A stretch of 33,075 bases of DNA, taken from Pseudomonadota bacterium (lineage in GTDB: Bacteria > Pseudomonadota > Gammaproteobacteria > Pseudomonadales > Moraxellaceae). Location of the stretch: assembly GCA_021804485.1 (NCBI GenBank), contig JAJZHM010000012.1, forward strand, positions 1-33,075, given 5' to 3'. Shown here piece after piece: positions 21,894-29,441 of the stretch (its first letter is position 1; each line of letters begins with the position of its first letter). Made by a program: the position numbers and the translations under genes. The notes under the pieces were generated by a model. The model was not told where the DNA came from. It was given only the letters and a program-made list of their open reading frames with translations, and searched no databases.

Positions 21894-21920
21894 CCTGAAG
21901 TCTGGAGCTAAATCTTCAGG
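21894..21920. repeat. short inverted repeat at the convergent ends of hemW and the SDR gene
   Basis: CCTGAAG (21894-21900) and CTTCAGG (21914-21920) are perfect 7-bp arms with a 13-base loop, spanning the SDR stop codon. It could be a hairpin between convergent genes. There is no U-tract, so a terminator role is only possible. Confidence 0.3.
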
Positions 21921-22645
21921 CGGTGAAACACTATGCGGGGAAAGTGACGCAGGATCAGCATGATCCATCGCCAGCGGCGGGGCGTGTAGAGTACCCATGC
22001 CTTCTGGCGGATGGCGTCATTGATGTCCGCAGCAACCTGTTCAACCGGAGCCAGTCTCACGCCTGCTGTTTTCAGATGTGCGGTCATGGCCGTATCGGTT
22101 GGTCCTGGCTTAATCAGCGTGACATGAATCCTTGAGTTTGCAAACCGGTGTTGCAGTCCTTCACTGAGGCGATCAAGCAGCGCCTTTGAGGCGCCATAAA
22201 CATAATTTGACTGACGTCCCCGATCACCAGCAACAGATCCGAACAGAACCAGATGACCGTAGCCCTGTCTGAAAAAATAGTCGGCACTTTTCAATGCACA
22301 TAAAGCCGGGGCAACAGCGTTGCTCTCGAAGGCTGCGTGGGCTGCATCCAGATCCTGTTCACAGTCTTGCTGGTTAGAAAGAACACCCTGAGCGAGACAA
22401 ATCAGATCAATATGCGAACGTTCGTCCAGAAAACGGACAAATTGCGGCACATCATTCAGATCACAGACATGGACCTCATAGATGCTGGCAGGGCTACGAA
22501 TTTGCAGATCGGCTTGCATTTGCTGCAGGCGAACAATATTACGACCGACCAGACAAACATGTTTCGCCTGTGGCTCTGTAGCCCAGACACGCAGCAGTGC
22601 CTGCATAATGCCGGAAGTGGCAGCACAAACGACAATATGTTGCAT
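21908..22645 (-). CDS. DprE2-like SDR: polyprenyl-phosphoryl-2-ketoribose reductase
   Basis: 245 residues, short-chain dehydrogenase fold. Catalytic Tyr and Lys are in YVYGASKALLD, preceded by LFGSVAGDRG. The C-terminus WIMLILRHFPRIVFHRLKI closely follows the ending of mycobacterial DprE2 (MMVLRHIPRSIFRKLPI), as does the KPGPTDTAMTAHLK segment. DprE2 reduces the 2-keto intermediate with NADH, completing the change from ribose to arabinose on the lipid carrier. In the cofactor loop AATSGI, the first glycine of the usual GATSGI is alanine. The ATG at 22645 is chosen because GGAGAGG lies 5 bases before it. It is downstream of, and probably coupled to, the DprE1-like gene. Confidence 0.82.
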   Translation of the reverse strand: MQHIVVCAATSGIMQALLRVWATEPQAKHVCLVGRNIVRLQQMQADLQIRSPASIYEVHVCDLNDVPQFVRFLDERSHIDLICLAQGVLSNQQDCEQDLDAAHAAFESNAVAPALCALKSADYFFRQGYGHLVLFGSVAGDRGRQSNYVYGASKALLDRLSEGLQHRFANSRIHVTLIKPGPTDTAMTAHLKTAGVRLAPVEQVAADINDAIRQKAWVLYTPRRWRWIMLILRHFPRIVFHRLKI

Positions 22646-22665
22646 ATCAGCCTCTCCAGTTTGAC

Positions 22666-23958
22666 TCAGCATCCCAGAAGTCGCCGGGACAGGGCTGAAC
22701 TCAGGCCAGGATCACGATAGTCGAGAAAACGTTCCCAATCGGGATATCCAGTACGAAAAAGCGCTACCGGCATGCGTGCGTCCTTCGCCATGTAGATGCA
22801 TCCACCGGCTTCCTGGATAATGCGATCAAGCCGTTGGAACAGCCGCTCAGTCTGCATGGATTCGTTTGGGAAATCCAGTGCCAGTGTCGTTCCGGGTCGA
22901 GCAAAACTGAGCATACCCGGTGAGGTTCGTTGACCGAATGTTTTGAGAACAGCAAGAAATGAACCTCGTCCCGAACGGACAATGGTTTGCAGCAGGGCTT
23001 TGACAGCCTCTCTTTCGCTATGGGGCGGTACTAGACATTGGTACTGGTAGAAACCCTTTCGGCCATACATCCGGTTCCAGTTCTGTATGTGATCAAGGGG
23101 GTATAAAAAGGGTTGGTAGTGTACCAGCCTTGGCGAGGCTTTTAGTCGGTTGGTATGGTAGTACAACGGATTGAAAAGATGCAGGCTCAGCCTATTGACC
23201 AGAGAGAATGGCGGGCTCCATGGCATCCGTCGATGTTTCTCCTTAGGAATTTGATCGGCAAGCGGACTGTGTTTGCCGCGCATGAACAGTCCTCGGGGAG
23301 GATATCGGGTGCAGTCAAGCCAGGCGACGGTGTAGGGCCATTGAGGATCATGTTGATGAGCGAGTTGAAAATAGTCATCAACATGGTGAAAGGGCTGGAT
23401 TTCCTGCTCCATCCATGCACCAGGGACGCGCATCAGTTTAAGACGGGCGCTTTGGATCATTCCGGTCAATCCAAGTCCACCTAGTGTTGCCCTGAACAGT
23501 GGTGCGTCAGGATCAACCAGATTGAGCAACTGGCCATCGGTGCGAACAAGCCTCAAAGAGAGGACGTGATGTCCGAATGAACCTGCATCATCATGATTTT
23601 TACCATGCACATCGTTGGCAATGGCGCCACCAACCGTGACCCACTGTGTGCCCGGACTGACGGGCAGCATCCAGCCACGCACAATCATGAGGCGCTGAAT
23701 GGTACCGAGCAGCACGCCACTTTCACATTCCAGAATTCCTGAAATGGCGTCAAATGATATGAACTGATCAAGTCGTTCCGTCATGAGCAGACGACCGCCT
23801 GGATTCAGTGCGACATCTCCGTAACTTCGACCGGCACCATGGGCAATGATCTTGCCCGGTTCAGCCAATACATGGGGGAGCAGGTCGCGTTGCCATACAT
23901 ACTCCAGTTCATGGGGATCATGGGACAACCCGCCCCAGCAAAGCGAAGCAGAAATCAT
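22666..23958 (-). CDS. DprE1-like FAD oxidase: polyprenyl-phosphoribose 2'-epimerase subunit
   Basis: 430 residues, VAO/PCMH flavoprotein. The segments HGAGRSYGD (40-48), LPVSPGTQWVTVGGAIANDV and HGKNHDDAGSFGHHV match mycobacterial DprE1, including the FAD-binding histidine region. The lysine corresponding to Lys418 is in MAKDAR near the C-terminus. DprE1 oxidises decaprenyl-phosphoryl-ribose to the 2-keto form. The cysteine attacked by benzothiazinones (Cys387, context NICVDFP) is alanine here (LALDFP, Ala360). The start at 23958 overlaps the gtrA-like stop as ATGA and has AAGGAA upstream; the ORF-track start is 21 codons too early. Confidence 0.85.
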   Translation of the reverse strand: MISASLCWGGLSHDPHELEYVWQRDLLPHVLAEPGKIIAHGAGRSYGDVALNPGGRLLMTERLDQFISFDAISGILECESGVLLGTIQRLMIVRGWMLPVSPGTQWVTVGGAIANDVHGKNHDDAGSFGHHVLSLRLVRTDGQLLNLVDPDAPLFRATLGGLGLTGMIQSARLKLMRVPGAWMEQEIQPFHHVDDYFQLAHQHDPQWPYTVAWLDCTRYPPRGLFMRGKHSPLADQIPKEKHRRMPWSPPFSLVNRLSLHLFNPLYYHTNRLKASPRLVHYQPFLYPLDHIQNWNRMYGRKGFYQYQCLVPPHSEREAVKALLQTIVRSGRGSFLAVLKTFGQRTSPGMLSFARPGTTLALDFPNESMQTERLFQRLDRIIQEAGGCIYMAKDARMPVALFRTGYPDWERFLDYRDPGLSSALSRRLLGC

Positions 23959-24455
23959 AGGGATTCCTTGCGAAATACGTACTGGCGATCTAACTGGTAT
24001 TTGATGAAATACCCAAGGCAAAGACCCAATACGGCACCGACATAACGCATATCCGGGTTGCTGAAGAGAAGGCGAAAACCCAATTCACTCACCCAGAAAA
24101 TGACGGTCGTAACCACACCCATAAGACTGTATAGGATAAAGGTCGATCCGTCATGGCGCAGGTTTTGAGGAACAAAGGCAAAAATGAACCTACGGTCGAG
24201 CCAGTATTTCACCAGCAGTCCGGTCAGTGTTCCGGCAAGCATGGAGATGATAAGGACTGGTTCATAGACTGGTTTATAGATAAGAGTTTGGGTCGTTGCA
24301 TGCAAGGGAAAGAGAAGGCAGACAGCGTGTTGCGTTTCCAAGTTAACCAATGTCGAAATGGCTGCAAAAAAACTGTAGAGAAACAGAATTCGCACAATGA
24401 ATGTCATCTGAGGCTGTCTGGGGCCTATGCTATCATGCGTTCCAGTGCTTGTCAT
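23955..24455 (-). CDS. GtrA-family membrane protein (possible lipid-sugar flippase)
   Basis: 166 residues (150 if the ATG at 24407 is used), four predicted membrane helices. Two internal repeats end in the family motif: VKYWLDRRFIFAF and IKYQLDRQYVFRK. GtrA proteins are proposed to move polyprenyl-linked sugars across the inner membrane. The mycobacterial GtrA-like protein Rv3789 is encoded beside dprE1/dprE2 and was proposed to flip decaprenyl-phosphoryl-arabinose, although a role in recruiting arabinosyltransferases has also been suggested. The gene precedes dprE1 with an ATGA overlap. The first ATG is only 11 bases from the divergent start codon, so the internal start at 24407 (MTFIVRILFLY) may be the real one. 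Confidence 0.82.
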   Translation of the reverse strand: MTSTGTHDSIGPRQPQMTFIVRILFLYSFFAAISTLVNLETQHAVCLLFPLHATTQTLIYKPVYEPVLIISMLAGTLTGLLVKYWLDRRFIFAFVPQNLRHDGSTFILYSLMGVVTTVIFWVSELGFRLLFSNPDMRYVGAVLGLCLGYFIKYQLDRQYVFRKESL

Positions 24456-24466
24456 GGTAGCTTGTT

Positions 24467-25897
24467 ATGGTTGATTGTACCCCGACGGATGGAATTGTGC
24501 TTTGTGTCGACATGGATGGATCGTTGATTCGTTCCGATACCCTGCTGGAGAGTATGCTCCGTCTGATCAAGGTGAAACCATGGACTCTCTTTATGCTGCC
24601 GTTCGTGCTGCTGCAGGGGCGCCTGCACTTCAAACAGTGGATCAACAAACAGGTACAGATTGATCCGGCCAGTCTGCCCTATAACGAGCCGTTGTTGCAG
24701 TGGCTACGGCAGCAGAAAGCGAAGGGAAGGCGACTTGTGCTGGCGACCGCTTCGGTACAGTCGGTGGCTGATCGGGTTGCCCGGCATGTCGGGATCTTTG
24801 ATGAGGTGATTGGTTCCCAAACAATCAATCTCAAGGCATCCCAAAAGGCCAACGAGTTGGTTCAGCGTTTTGGTGAACAGGGTTTTGACTATGTCGGCAA
24901 CAGCCAGGACGATCTGGCGGTGTGGCAACATGCGCGGCAGGCCATTGCGGTACAGGCGCCCGCCCGAGTACTCCTTCAGCTTGCCAGTTCACATACTCTT
25001 GTCATCTTTAAGGATAACACTTCAAAAATCCAGTTGTTCTGGCGTGCCCTGCGCCCACATCAGTGGGCTAAGAATGGCTTGATCCTGGTGCCGGTTTTGC
25101 TGGCACATCGGTTTTTCCAGTTGGATGAATGGATTAAGTGTCTGTGGGCCTTCGGTTCGTTTTCATTGACCGCTTCAAGCGTTTATGTGCTTAATGATCT
25201 GCTTGATCTGGATGCTGATCGCATGCACGCCACTAAAATGGCACGGCCCTTTGCGAGTGCTCAGCTATCCCTTTCCATTGGGCTTGCCATGGTGCCACTC
25301 TTGTTGGTCGCCGCAGCCGTGTTGGCTGCATTCCTGCCACTGGGTTTTCTTGGTGTCCTTGCATTTTATTATTTTTGTACCCTGCTTTATTCTTTTTGGT
25401 TTAAAAGTCAGGTTCTTCTTGATGTACTGGCTCTGGCCTTACTGTATACCGTTCGTCTGCTGGCTGGAAAGGTCGCCTCTGATGTTCCGCTGTCGTTCTG
25501 GCTCTTAACTTTTTCGCTTTTCCTGTTCTTTAGTCTGGCATTGGTTAAGCGATACAGTGAACTTATGCAGAAAAGAAAAGATCATCAGATGAAGGCCTAT
25601 GGGCGAGGCTACCACATTGAAGACATGGTCATGCTGATGATCTTTGGGGTCACCAGTGCCATGACATCGGTGCTGGTTCTGGCTCTGTATATCAACAGTG
25701 CTCAGGTCAGGATAGGGTACCATCACCCGGAATGGCTTTGGCCCATGGTGCCGGTACTGCTTTACTGGGTCAGCCGGGTATGGGTCCTTGGGCACCGTGG
25801 CCTGATGCACGAAGACCCGGTTCTATTCGCCTTGCGCGATCGGGTAAGTTGGGGGGTCTTTGCAGTTCTGGCCTTGACCCTGCTGCTCGCCTTGTAG
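24467..25897 (+). CDS. HAD phosphatase-UbiA prenyltransferase fusion (phosphoribosyl-lipid synthase)
   Basis: 476 residues in two parts. Residues 10-190 are a HAD hydrolase: nucleophile motif VDMDGS (14-19), motif II LATAS, and the acidic motif GNSQDD. Residues 190-476 are a UbiA-type membrane prenyltransferase of about eight or nine helices, with the first Asp-rich motif NDLLDLDAD (243-251) followed by KMARPFASAQ and the second helix pair YSFWFK--LLDVLALALLYTVRLLAG. This resembles Rv3806c, which joins PRPP and decaprenyl phosphate. The HAD part would remove the 5-phosphate, a step assigned to Rv3807c in mycobacteria (inference). So one protein could make polyprenyl-phosphoryl-ribose for the divergent DprE1/DprE2 genes. 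The start cannot lie further in, as motif I follows at once. Confidence 0.85.
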   Translation: MVDCTPTDGIVLCVDMDGSLIRSDTLLESMLRLIKVKPWTLFMLPFVLLQGRLHFKQWINKQVQIDPASLPYNEPLLQWLRQQKAKGRRLVLATASVQSVADRVARHVGIFDEVIGSQTINLKASQKANELVQRFGEQGFDYVGNSQDDLAVWQHARQAIAVQAPARVLLQLASSHTLVIFKDNTSKIQLFWRALRPHQWAKNGLILVPVLLAHRFFQLDEWIKCLWAFGSFSLTASSVYVLNDLLDLDADRMHATKMARPFASAQLSLSIGLAMVPLLLVAAAVLAAFLPLGFLGVLAFYYFCTLLYSFWFKSQVLLDVLALALLYTVRLLAGKVASDVPLSFWLLTFSLFLFFSLALVKRYSELMQKRKDHQMKAYGRGYHIEDMVMLMIFGVTSAMTSVLVLALYINSAQVRIGYHHPEWLWPMVPVLLYWVSRVWVLGHRGLMHEDPVLFALRDRVSWGVFAVLALTLLLAL

Positions 25898-25997: not shown

Positions 25998-26558
25998 TCA
26001 TGGAAAATATTCCGCTGTCTTGAAAGCCACGCCAAGAACATCCTTGGGGGATAGTTGCGGAGAGGTTCCTTCCAATGGCCAAGCAATGGCAAGGTCAGCA
26101 TCATTCCAGCGGATACACCGCTCATGAGCCGGGCTGTAATAGTCGGTGGTTTTATAGAGAAAATCTGCCTGTTCCGTTAGAGTGAGAAATCCGTGGGCAA
26201 AACCAGGTGGTATCCAGAGCAGAGCTTTGTTTTCCGAACTCAGCGTCGCACCGACCCAGCGCCCAAAAGAGGGTGACCCCTTTCTCAGATCAACCGCCAC
26301 ATCAAACACCGCGCCTGCGACCACACGCACCAGCTTTCCCTGAGCATGGGGGGAAAGCTGATAATGCAGGCCCCGAAGCACCCCTTGAACCGAACGACTG
26401 TGATTATCCTGAACAAAACCCAAAGTACGCTGTTCAAGCGGCAGGTGTTCCATAAACTGGCGCTGATTAAAGCTTTCGAAAAAGAAGCCGCGTTCATCGC
26501 CAAAGATCCGGGGTTCAATCAGGAGTACTTCCGGAATATCAAGGGGAATGACGTTCAT
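25998..26558 (-). CDS. rfbC: dTDP-4-dehydrorhamnose 3,5-epimerase
   Basis: 186 residues, cupin-fold RmlC. The N-terminal [17 protein letters not shown], the GVLRGLHYQ strand with the catalytic histidine, [16 protein letters not shown] and the tyrosines of [11 protein letters not shown] are all family signatures. It performs the double epimerisation in dTDP-L-rhamnose synthesis, the third step of the pathway. It is the last gene of rfbBDAC and its start overlaps the end of rfbA by 4 bases. It is convergent with the HAD-UbiA gene, 100 bases away. Confidence 0.96.
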
Positions 26559-27433
26559 GAACTGGCTCCTACCAGATGACGAAGATACTGACCATAACCA
26601 TTTTTCAACATGGGTTTGGCCAGCTTCTCAAGCTGTTCAGCATCAATCCAGCCCTGGGTAAAGGCAATCTCTTCCGGACAAGCAACTTTAAGTCCCTGAC
26701 GTGTTTCCAGAGTTGCAATAAATTGACTGGCTTCAAGCAGTGAATCATGGGTTCCCGTGTCCAGCCATGCATAGCCACGTCCCATTATTTCAACAGATAG
26801 CTTACGGTCGCGCAGATAAAGCGCATTCAGATCCGTAATCTCTAGTTCGCCGCGTGCGGAGGGTTTGAGTTGCCTCGCGTATTCAACGACATTTTCATCG
26901 TAGAAATAAAGACCGGTAACCGCGTAGTTGGAGCGAGGGTTCTGGGGTTTTTCTTCCAGACTTAAAGCTCTTCCGGAGGCATCAAAATCGACGACACCAT
27001 AGCGCTCGGGATCTTTGACGTGGTAGGCAAAGACACTTGCCCCCTGTTCACGTTCATGAGCCGAGGCGAGGAGATTCGGAAGATCGTGACCATAAAATAT
27101 ATTATCTCCGAGAATCAGTGCAGAATGATACCCGCGTACAAAATCTTCACCAATCAGGAACGCTTGCGCAAGACCATCCGGGCTGGGCTGAATCGCATAA
27201 GTTAGTTCCAGTCCCCATGCATGGCCATTGCCGAGAAGTTGCTGAAAACGTGGGGTATCCTGGGGGGTTGAAATGATCAGGATTTCGCGCAGACCCGCCA
27301 GCATGAGGGTACTGAGCGGATAGTACACCATGGGTTTGTCATAGACAGGCAGAAGTTGTTTGGAAATCGCCAATGTGGCCGGATGGAGGCGTGTTCCTGA
27401 GCCACCAGCCAGAATAATGCCGCGTCGTTTCAT
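26555..27433 (-). CDS. rfbA: glucose-1-phosphate thymidylyltransferase
   Basis: 292 residues. The nucleotidyltransferase signature [11 protein letters not shown] (10-20) with [16 protein letters not shown], then [11 protein letters not shown] with the metal-binding aspartate, and YGVVDFD are typical RmlA. It makes dTDP-glucose from dTTP and glucose-1-phosphate, the first step to dTDP-L-rhamnose, and is normally feedback-inhibited by dTDP-rhamnose. ATGA overlap with rfbD upstream and a 4-base overlap with rfbC downstream show translational coupling. Confidence 0.96.
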
Positions 27434-28353
27434 GAAGGGGTTCCTTGCATCAGCATGAAGGTAAGATGATCAATGATCGGATTGATGTCCTGCTGCCAGT
27501 TGGGCATGGCAGGGACGCCAAGCAACGTGCATAGCTGGCTGGTGTCCAAACGGGAATTAAGTGGTCGAGGTGCTGGAACCGGATATTCAGAGGAAGGAAT
27601 CGGTTCAATATCTTCAGGGTTGAGTTGGGTTACTAGACCCAACTGACGCGCCCGACGAACAATATATTGAGCATAGTCGAACCATGTGGTGCTGCCTGAA
27701 GCCGTCAGATGGAAGATTCCTGATGTATACATGCTGTCCGGTTGTTCGAGAAACTGTACAGTTGTTCTGGCAATCAGTTCAGCGGCAGTCGGCGCACCCA
27801 TTTGATCGTCAATGACACGCAAATCAGAACGATTCTGCGACAGACGCAGTATGGTACGAATGAAATTATTCCCCTGCATGCCGGCCACCCAGGATGTCCT
27901 GAAAATCACATGGCGACAAGAGGACTTGAAAATTGCCTGTTCGCCTGCAAATTTGCTTTTGCCGTAAACAGAAAGCGGGCATGGCTCGTCTGTTTCGACG
28001 TAGGGGGCAGACTTTGTACCATCAAACACATAGTCCGTTGAGTAGTGTACAAACTGGGCATCATTGCGGGCGCACCAGCGAGCCATCAGACCTACGCTTT
28101 CAGCATTGACCCGAAAAGCCCGTTCAGGTTCGCTCTCAGCTTTGTCCACAGCGGTATAGGCGGCAGGATTAATCACCAGCGTGGGTTTAAAGGTGTTGAG
28201 AACTGACTCAATATGATCGGGTTCGTCAAGGTTGAGCTGATTTCGATCCAGACCAGTACAGTTGTTTTTGCCAAAAGCAATCAATAGGGCGGAACCCAGT
28301 TGACCCGATATGCCGGTAATAATGGTTTTCTGCTGCTGGAGATGATCAGGCAT
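27430..28353 (-). CDS. rfbD: dTDP-4-dehydrorhamnose reductase
   Basis: 307 residues, extended SDR fold. The NAD(P)-binding loop is GISGQLG (14-20), the catalytic serine-threonine strand [10 protein letters not shown], and the active-site YGKSK follows in [27 protein letters not shown] is a hallmark of RmlD. It reduces the 4-keto group to give dTDP-L-rhamnose, the last step of the pathway. It overlaps rfbB by 8 bases and rfbA by 4. Confidence 0.96.
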
Positions 28354-29407
28354 GATATTGGCTCGTCAACCATTGCCGATAACTGCCACTGGAGACTCCC
28401 TGAACCCAGTCCGTATGGTCAAGATACCAGGATACCGTTTTGCGTAGTCCGCTCGCAAAGGTTTCTGCAGGTCTCCAACCTAGTTCCTGTTCCAGTTTGC
28501 GCGCATCAATGGCATAGCGGCGATCATGTCCCGGTCGGTCACGAACAAAACGGATCTGATCTGCATAGGACTTTCCGTCGGAACGGGGTTTCAGTTCATC
28601 CAGCAAACCGCAGATCATGCGGACGACTTCGAGGTTGGCTTGCTCGTTCCAGCCACCGATGTTATAGGTTTCGCCGATTCGGCCGGCTTCAAGGACACGT
28701 CTCAGTGCACTGCAGTGATCCTTGACATAAAGCCAGTCCCTGACCTGTTGGCCATCACCATAGACGGGCAGATCTTTTCCTTCCAGAGCATGCAGAATCA
28801 CCAGAGGAATCAGTTTTTCTGGAAAATGATAAGGGCCATAATTATTACTGCAGTTGGTGGTCAGCACCGGAAATCCATAGGTATGGAACCATGCCCGAAC
28901 CAGATGATCACTTGCGGCCTTGCTTGCCGAATAGGGGCTGTTCGGCTGGTAGGGGTGGTCTTCCCGAAAGGCTGGGTCATTGGGTCCAAGACTGCCATAG
29001 ACTTCATCGGTCGAAACGTGCAGAAAACGAAAGCGATTACGTTCCTCTTCCGTGCATTCGAGCCAATAGGCCCGTACCGACTCCAGCAGGCGAAAGGTGC
29101 CAACAACATTGGTTTCTATAAAGGCACCAGGTCCATGAATTGAACGATCAACGTGGGATTCGGCCGCAAAGTTGATCACAGCCCTGGGTTTATGCTCAAG
29201 CAGTATACGGCTGACGAGCGCTGTGTCCCCGATATCACCTTGAACAAAATGATGGTGCTGATGATGGGCAATCGACTCCAGAGTCTGCAGATTTCCAGCA
29301 TAGGTAAGTTTGTCCAGATTGATCAGAAGCTCATCGTTATGTCCGATCCAGTCCAGTACAAAATTTCCACCAATAAATCCTGCACCACCTGTGACTAGAA
29401 TTGCCAT
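28346..29407 (-). CDS. rfbB: dTDP-glucose 4,6-dehydratase
   Basis: 353 residues. The NAD loop [10 protein letters not shown] (6-15), the catalytic triad strand [11 protein letters not shown] and the [11 protein letters not shown] motif (tyrosine near residue 158) define RmlB. It oxidises, dehydrates and reduces dTDP-glucose to the 4-keto-6-deoxy sugar. The ATG at 29407 has AAGGGA upstream; the ORF-track start is a TTG one codon earlier. It is the first gene of the rhamnose operon, and the promoter is predicted in the 154-base divergent region. Confidence 0.96.
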
Positions 29408-29441
29408 CAATATTTCCCTTTATGACAAGCTTTAAAGAATC

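Follow-up and report, generated by a model that had tools for sequence, protein, structure and literature searches.

A HAD-UbiA fusion protein predicted to make polyprenyl-phosphoribofuranose beside DprE1 and DprE2 homologues in a Moraxellaceae bacterium

A single gene in a Moraxellaceae genome (assembly GCA_021804485.1) very probably encodes a bifunctional polyprenyl-phosphoribofuranose synthase, whose product would be converted by DprE1 and DprE2 homologues to a D-arabinofuranose lipid and then flipped by a GtrA-family protein. This reading draws on sequence comparison, structural modelling and analogy with a homologue of established activity. The locus resides on contig JAJZHM010000012.1, of which positions 1 to 33,075 were analysed (33,075 nucleotides, hereafter ‘the window’). 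The domain architecture, conserved residues, fold and gene neighbourhood that form its basis are established below.

In the proposed mechanism, the UbiA-fold domain, working at the cytoplasmic face of the membrane, would transfer 5-phosphoribose from PRPP to a polyprenyl phosphate carrier that is probably undecaprenyl phosphate. The fused HAD domain would then remove the 5-phosphate via a phospho-aspartate intermediate at Asp15. Inversion of C2 by the DprE1-like oxidase and the DprE2-like reductase is predicted to yield polyprenyl-phospho-D-arabinofuranose, which the GtrA protein probably flips outward for use by a GT-C transferase and its presumed acceptor. Under such an assignment, a further Gram-negative lineage would possess the donor pathway for D-arabinofuranose, which is known chiefly as a drug target in tuberculosis. 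The assignment also indicates that in this lineage the 5-phosphatase step may fall to a HAD domain fused to the transferase, and not to an Rv3807c-like protein.

A full-length fusion of a known family

An earlier, sequence-only reading of this DNA had described a HAD phosphatase joined to the N-terminus of a UbiA-family phosphoribosyltransferase, and had suggested structure prediction and domain searches as checks. The relevant features are as follows.

24467..25897, + strand: HAD-UbiA fusion ORF (476 aa, ATG start)
24467..25015, + strand: putative HAD phosphoribose-phosphatase domain, residues ~1-183, core ~10-183 (Pfam PF12710, NF006088, conservation, AlphaFold, Foldseek)
24509..24517, + strand: codons of HAD motif I, D15-M16-D17
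25025..25894, + strand: predicted UbiA-fold polyprenyl-phosphate phosphoribosyltransferase domain, residues ~187-476 (PF01040; PDB 8j8j/8j8k by sequence and fold)
25193..25219, + strand: Mg/PRPP motif N243-D244-x2-D247-x3-D251, equivalent to Rv3806c N73/D77 and the ORF15 N247/D248/D251/D255 pattern (invariant, 54/54)
25547..25561, + strand: cytoplasmic-loop motif K361-R362-x2-E365, equivalent to the ORF15 R366/E369 pattern (invariant, 54/54)

The fusion is real. Pfam identifies both PF12710 (HAD, 2.1e-07) and PF01040 (UbiA, 5e-16) in the same chain, and the NCBIfam model NF006088 (PRK08238), which represents the entire HAD-UbiA fusion at full length, matches residues 10-475 with 612.8 bits (3.9e-184; curated cut-off 351). 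Two genomes of the same genus (G001 and G002) likewise have this fusion next to the same GtrA and DprE1 genes, which excludes an assembly artefact. The protein is an unexceptional representative of a known family that is widespread in Gram-negative bacteria. In an AlphaFold model based on an alignment of 54 sequences (pLDDT 94, pTM 0.90), the HAD part folds as a Rossmann-type core with a small helical cap (residues ~25-85), and the UbiA part forms a multi-helix bundle that matches Rv3806c.

A predicted PRPP site in the membrane domain

By both sequence and fold, the best match in the PDB is Mycobacterium tuberculosis Rv3806c, for which a structure with bound donor is available. Foldseek ranks the Rv3806c entries 8j8j and 8j8k at the top (TMt 0.83), whereas other UbiA structures reach at most 0.72. 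The PRPP site was mapped by phmmer alignment onto the PRPP-bound Rv3806c structure (PMC10994848). Rv3806c residues R22, K28, Y70, N73, D77, K87, R90, Y138 and K143 align with identical residues in the fusion protein, and K208 corresponds to R380, a Lys-to-Arg change. The same offset, rather than direct alignment, pairs Y157 with Y327 and Q135 with a Thr residue. Altogether, 11 of the 12 PRPP-site residues are identical or conservatively replaced. Residues N243, D244, D247, D251, K257, R260, Y308, K313, K361, R362, E365 and R380 of the UbiA part are invariant among the 54 aligned sequences.

The phosphoribose-binding sites of Rv3806c are reported not to be conserved in other UbiA enzymes (PMC10994848), and their retention here therefore favours PRPP as the donor. 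This conservation argues for the proposal that the domain acts on PRPP and not on a different soluble substrate. With 133.5 bits, the protein scores below the cut-offs (207 and 234) of the NCBIfam decaprenyl-phosphate phosphoribosyltransferase equivalogs, and thus its UbiA domain represents a sister family rather than that equivalog itself.

A fused phosphatase with intact catalytic motifs

The intact nucleophile motif (DMDGS) recognized in the sequence-only reading is confirmed. Within residues 14-VDMDGS-19, the nucleophile D15 and the acid/base D17 are each present in all 54 aligned sequences. Motifs II-IV are also complete, with T94 in 52 of 54 sequences and both K127 and D149 in 54 of 54. 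At position 145, motif IV has Asn in 41 sequences, including the fusion protein, and Asp in the other 13. The fusion protein itself thus carries D15, D17, T94, K127 and N145/D149. Searching PDB sequences with a HAD-domain profile gave no convincing relative; resemblance to SerB-like HAD phosphatases was revealed by fold search (Foldseek) only.

Functional evidence comes from ORF15 of Citrobacter youngae O1, a HAD-UbiA fusion that makes farnesyl-phospho-ribose from PRPP (PMC11127046). Its HAD nucleophile mutant D18A accumulates farnesyl-phospho-ribose-5-phosphate, although some dephosphorylated product persists (PMC11127046), and therefore ORF15 does not depend strictly on the HAD step. This experiment is equivalent to the nucleophile-mutant assay that had been proposed for the Moraxellaceae protein. 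Because ORF15 has the identical architecture and carries out both steps, its established activities support, by analogy, the claim that one membrane protein could perform both reactions here. A further claim, that a non-homologous phosphatase is used instead of Rv3807c, held in part. The genome has a single PAP2-family match, a protein of 597 aa whose long N-terminal part lies outside the PAP2 region and which does not resemble Rv3807c. This agrees with the claim; the word ‘replacing’ is to be taken only as an analogy.

The gene neighbourhood points to arabinofuranose

The genes that flank the fusion are listed below.

21908..22672, - strand: DprE2-like SDR reductase (NF053786, 1.8e-41; PDB 21gq_C, DprE2, 1.8e-23)
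22666..24021, - strand: DprE1-like FAD oxidase, start uncertain, ORF overlapping the GtrA gene (NF053785, 1.5e-94; PDB DprE1, 5e-62)
23955..24455, - strand: GtrA-family membrane protein, probable lipid-sugar flippase (NF037976, 4e-45; syntenic in relatives), real start likely near 24407
25998..29410, - strand: rmlC, rmlA, rmlD and rmlB dTDP-rhamnose genes (neighbours of the fusion conserved in close relatives)

The GtrA, DprE1-like and DprE2-like genes adjoin the fusion divergently, which makes polyprenyl-phospho-D-arabinofuranose the most likely end product, and the rmlBDAC genes occupy the opposite flank. Both DprE homologues score below their equivalog cut-offs (317.8 versus 500 bits for NF053785, and 142.5 versus 250 for NF053786), but homology is strong nonetheless. 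The entire rml-fusion-GtrA-DprE arrangement is kept in G002. It is likewise kept in G001, where two extra genes lie between rmlC and the fusion and the stretch compared ends after DprE1. A GT-C arabinosyltransferase was also sought in the genome: there was no match to the GT-C protein from a relative’s operon, and the search gave one PMT_2 protein on contig 69.

Two other observations were made in the window. In alignment, the DprE1-like protein (22666-24021, - strand) carries Ala at a position where the mycobacterial sequence reads VCVDFP; the Cys of this motif we take to be Cys387, the benzothiazinone target. A transposase-like fragment, as judged from sequence, is located at the contig start (22-573, + strand).

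Distribution among relatives

A scan of GTDB genomes, from which the best 80 loci were kept, recovered fused HAD-UbiA genes in 80 of 80, a figure biased towards fused genes because a HAD peptide served as one of the two patterns searched with. These loci span Proteobacteria, Acidobacteria, Verrucomicrobia, KSB1, Kapabacteria and Myxococcota. Within 6 kb of the fused genes, DprE1 was present at 57 loci, DprE1 together with DprE2 at 51, and neither at 23, some of these last on short contigs. The adjacency of both DprE genes here and near 51 of the best 80 fused relatives was counted in favour of the whole pathway. In a less biased sample, 62 of 274 genomes of the class gave a match at 1e-35; about 25 of the 62, besides the genome under study, carry full-length fusions, and the remainder are mostly UbiA-only.

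Individual loci display further associations. One (L027, 464-6698, - strand) has a type IV pilin-like gene near the DPA genes, which is suggestive of pilin arabinosylation as in Pseudomonas paraeruginosa, where a related pathway operates (PMC12369383). In Erwinia typographi (L119, 5989-9343), genes for a small membrane protein and for a probable GT-C protein of 535 aa come after the HAD-UbiA gene, DprE genes are absent, and the locus looks like a three-component ribosylation system.

Split, duplicated and degenerate forms

In a FastTree phylogeny, the fused clade is monophyletic (support 0.96). Parsimony places six HAD-state changes inside it, where many inner nodes are weak, a pattern consistent with repeated HAD loss. 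As read from the raw assemblies of one genus (g153), the DprE-operon copy lacks the HAD domain in one genome (G287, L130) and has a HAD domain without motifs III-IV in another (G172, L133). Each genome also harbours a second copy (L139 and L140) with an intact HAD domain and a truncated UbiA part, which in L140 is degenerate at the catalytic motif. The two DprE-operon copies do not group in the tree, and therefore they may represent two independent events or transfers. Four other fused-clade genomes have the UbiA part alone and no related HAD (L131, L132, L134 and L149), indicating that the HAD domain is replaceable. HAD-only homologues of the fused domain also occur (L136, 5164-5712, and L137, 5074-5619); no UbiA partner was detected in either genome. 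One candidate natural split (G026; L032, 7839-9288 region) was rejected: a frameshift within the HAD part interrupts what is a single gene, reflecting either an assembly error or decay.

A separate UbiA clade (support 0.98) includes operons in which an unfused TIGR01490 HAD (HAD-IB-hyp1) lies beside DprE1, DprE2 and a standalone UbiA gene (L033-L035, L144, L145 and L147). These operons often also contain a TIGR00374 flippase and a GT-C protein. The reciprocal loss of HAD and UbiA parts, together with separate HAD genes in DprE operons, fits a pathway that requires both activities. We offer tentatively, at a little under an even chance, that the fusion arose once and was repeatedly dismantled, with duplicates dividing the UbiA and HAD functions in G287 and G172 and other lineages dropping or swapping the phosphatase. 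If so, the HAD domain could act in trans on a membrane-bound product, and obligatory channelling between the two sites would be unneeded. Duplicated and split copies could serve as natural mutants for asking whether both activities must stay tethered.

Alternative readings

The fusion might make polyprenyl-phospho-ribose for a pathway that ends in ribose or another pentose, with the DprE homologues acting elsewhere. ORF15 systems without DprE1/E2 indeed add ribofuranose or xylofuranose (PMC11127046), and the 23 DprE-free flanks among the best 80 relatives, such as that of E. typographi, fit this alternative. However, it is unlikely here, given that both homologues are adjacent, are kept in same-genus relatives and have solved DprE1 and DprE2 structures as their best matches. 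We regard it as very unlikely that the HAD domain survives only as a remnant with a structural or regulatory role while another cellular phosphatase removes the 5-phosphate. Several clade members without a fused HAD, the product remaining in ORF15 D18A (PMC11127046) and the further HAD proteins of this genome would suit a remnant, whereas the conservation of all catalytic residues across 54 sequences, the intact HAD retained by one copy in duplicated cases and the phospho-lipid accumulated by the ORF15 mutant (PMC11127046) argue for a working phosphatase.

The Pfam label, which names only a UbiA prenyltransferase, would also accommodate an ordinary enzyme that joins a prenyl diphosphate to an aromatic or other acceptor. 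The closer fold match to Rv3806c and the presence of phosphoribose-binding residues that other UbiA enzymes do not conserve (PMC10994848) render this extremely improbable, as does a typical UbiA encoded separately on contig 120. The bifunctional synthase acting ahead of DprE1 and DprE2 remains the preferred reading.

Comparison with known systems

No difference was found between the protein and NF006088, whose name (‘UbiA family prenyltransferase’) is silent on function. Rv3806c, the DPPR synthase of M. tuberculosis, resembles the UbiA-fold domain in its fold and PRPP-site residues, but it lacks a HAD domain, and the assigned mycobacterial phosphatase Rv3807c is a separate and unrelated protein. 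ORF15 shares the N-terminal HAD domain and the C-terminal UbiA fold with NDxxDxxxD and RxxE motifs, a likeness judged by architecture and published motif pattern. Its cluster differs in having a MATE transporter and a GT136 enzyme for ribose or xylose side chains, whereas GtrA and DprE1/DprE2 homologues adjoin the fusion here. DprE1/E2 homologues are present in arabinose-containing systems (Kelly et al. 2024, PMC11127046). The same authors place the phosphatase of the P. syringae fusion at the C-terminus (PMC11127046); unlike in that text, it is N-terminal at two P. viridiflava-group loci (L083 and L115).

Related solutions occur elsewhere. Rhizobial noeN has been proposed to supply this phosphatase for the arabinosylation of Nod factors, and its deletion causes a partial loss (PMC5080398). 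The Haemophilus influenzae b Bcs3 CriT-CrpP enzyme and related glycan PRT-PRP enzymes likewise combine, within a single protein, PRPP-dependent ribose-5-phosphate transfer with a subsequent HAD phosphatase step, but they employ a soluble PRTase fold and a glycan acceptor, in contrast to the membrane UbiA fold and predicted lipid acceptor of the fusion (PMC10299916). The HAD-IB-hyp1 operons, with their DPPR-synthase-type UbiA, are predicted to encode this pathway too, again including a HAD phosphatase, and differ in their separate genes, their HAD subfamily and their UbiA clade. The two-step mechanism in one protein is already published for ORF15 and is not new, and the combination of HAD-UbiA with DprE1/E2 also falls within the description by Kelly et al. 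Two by-products of the analysis look less familiar, namely the reciprocal loss of domains after duplication and the unfused HAD-IB-hyp1 phosphatase in a separate clade.
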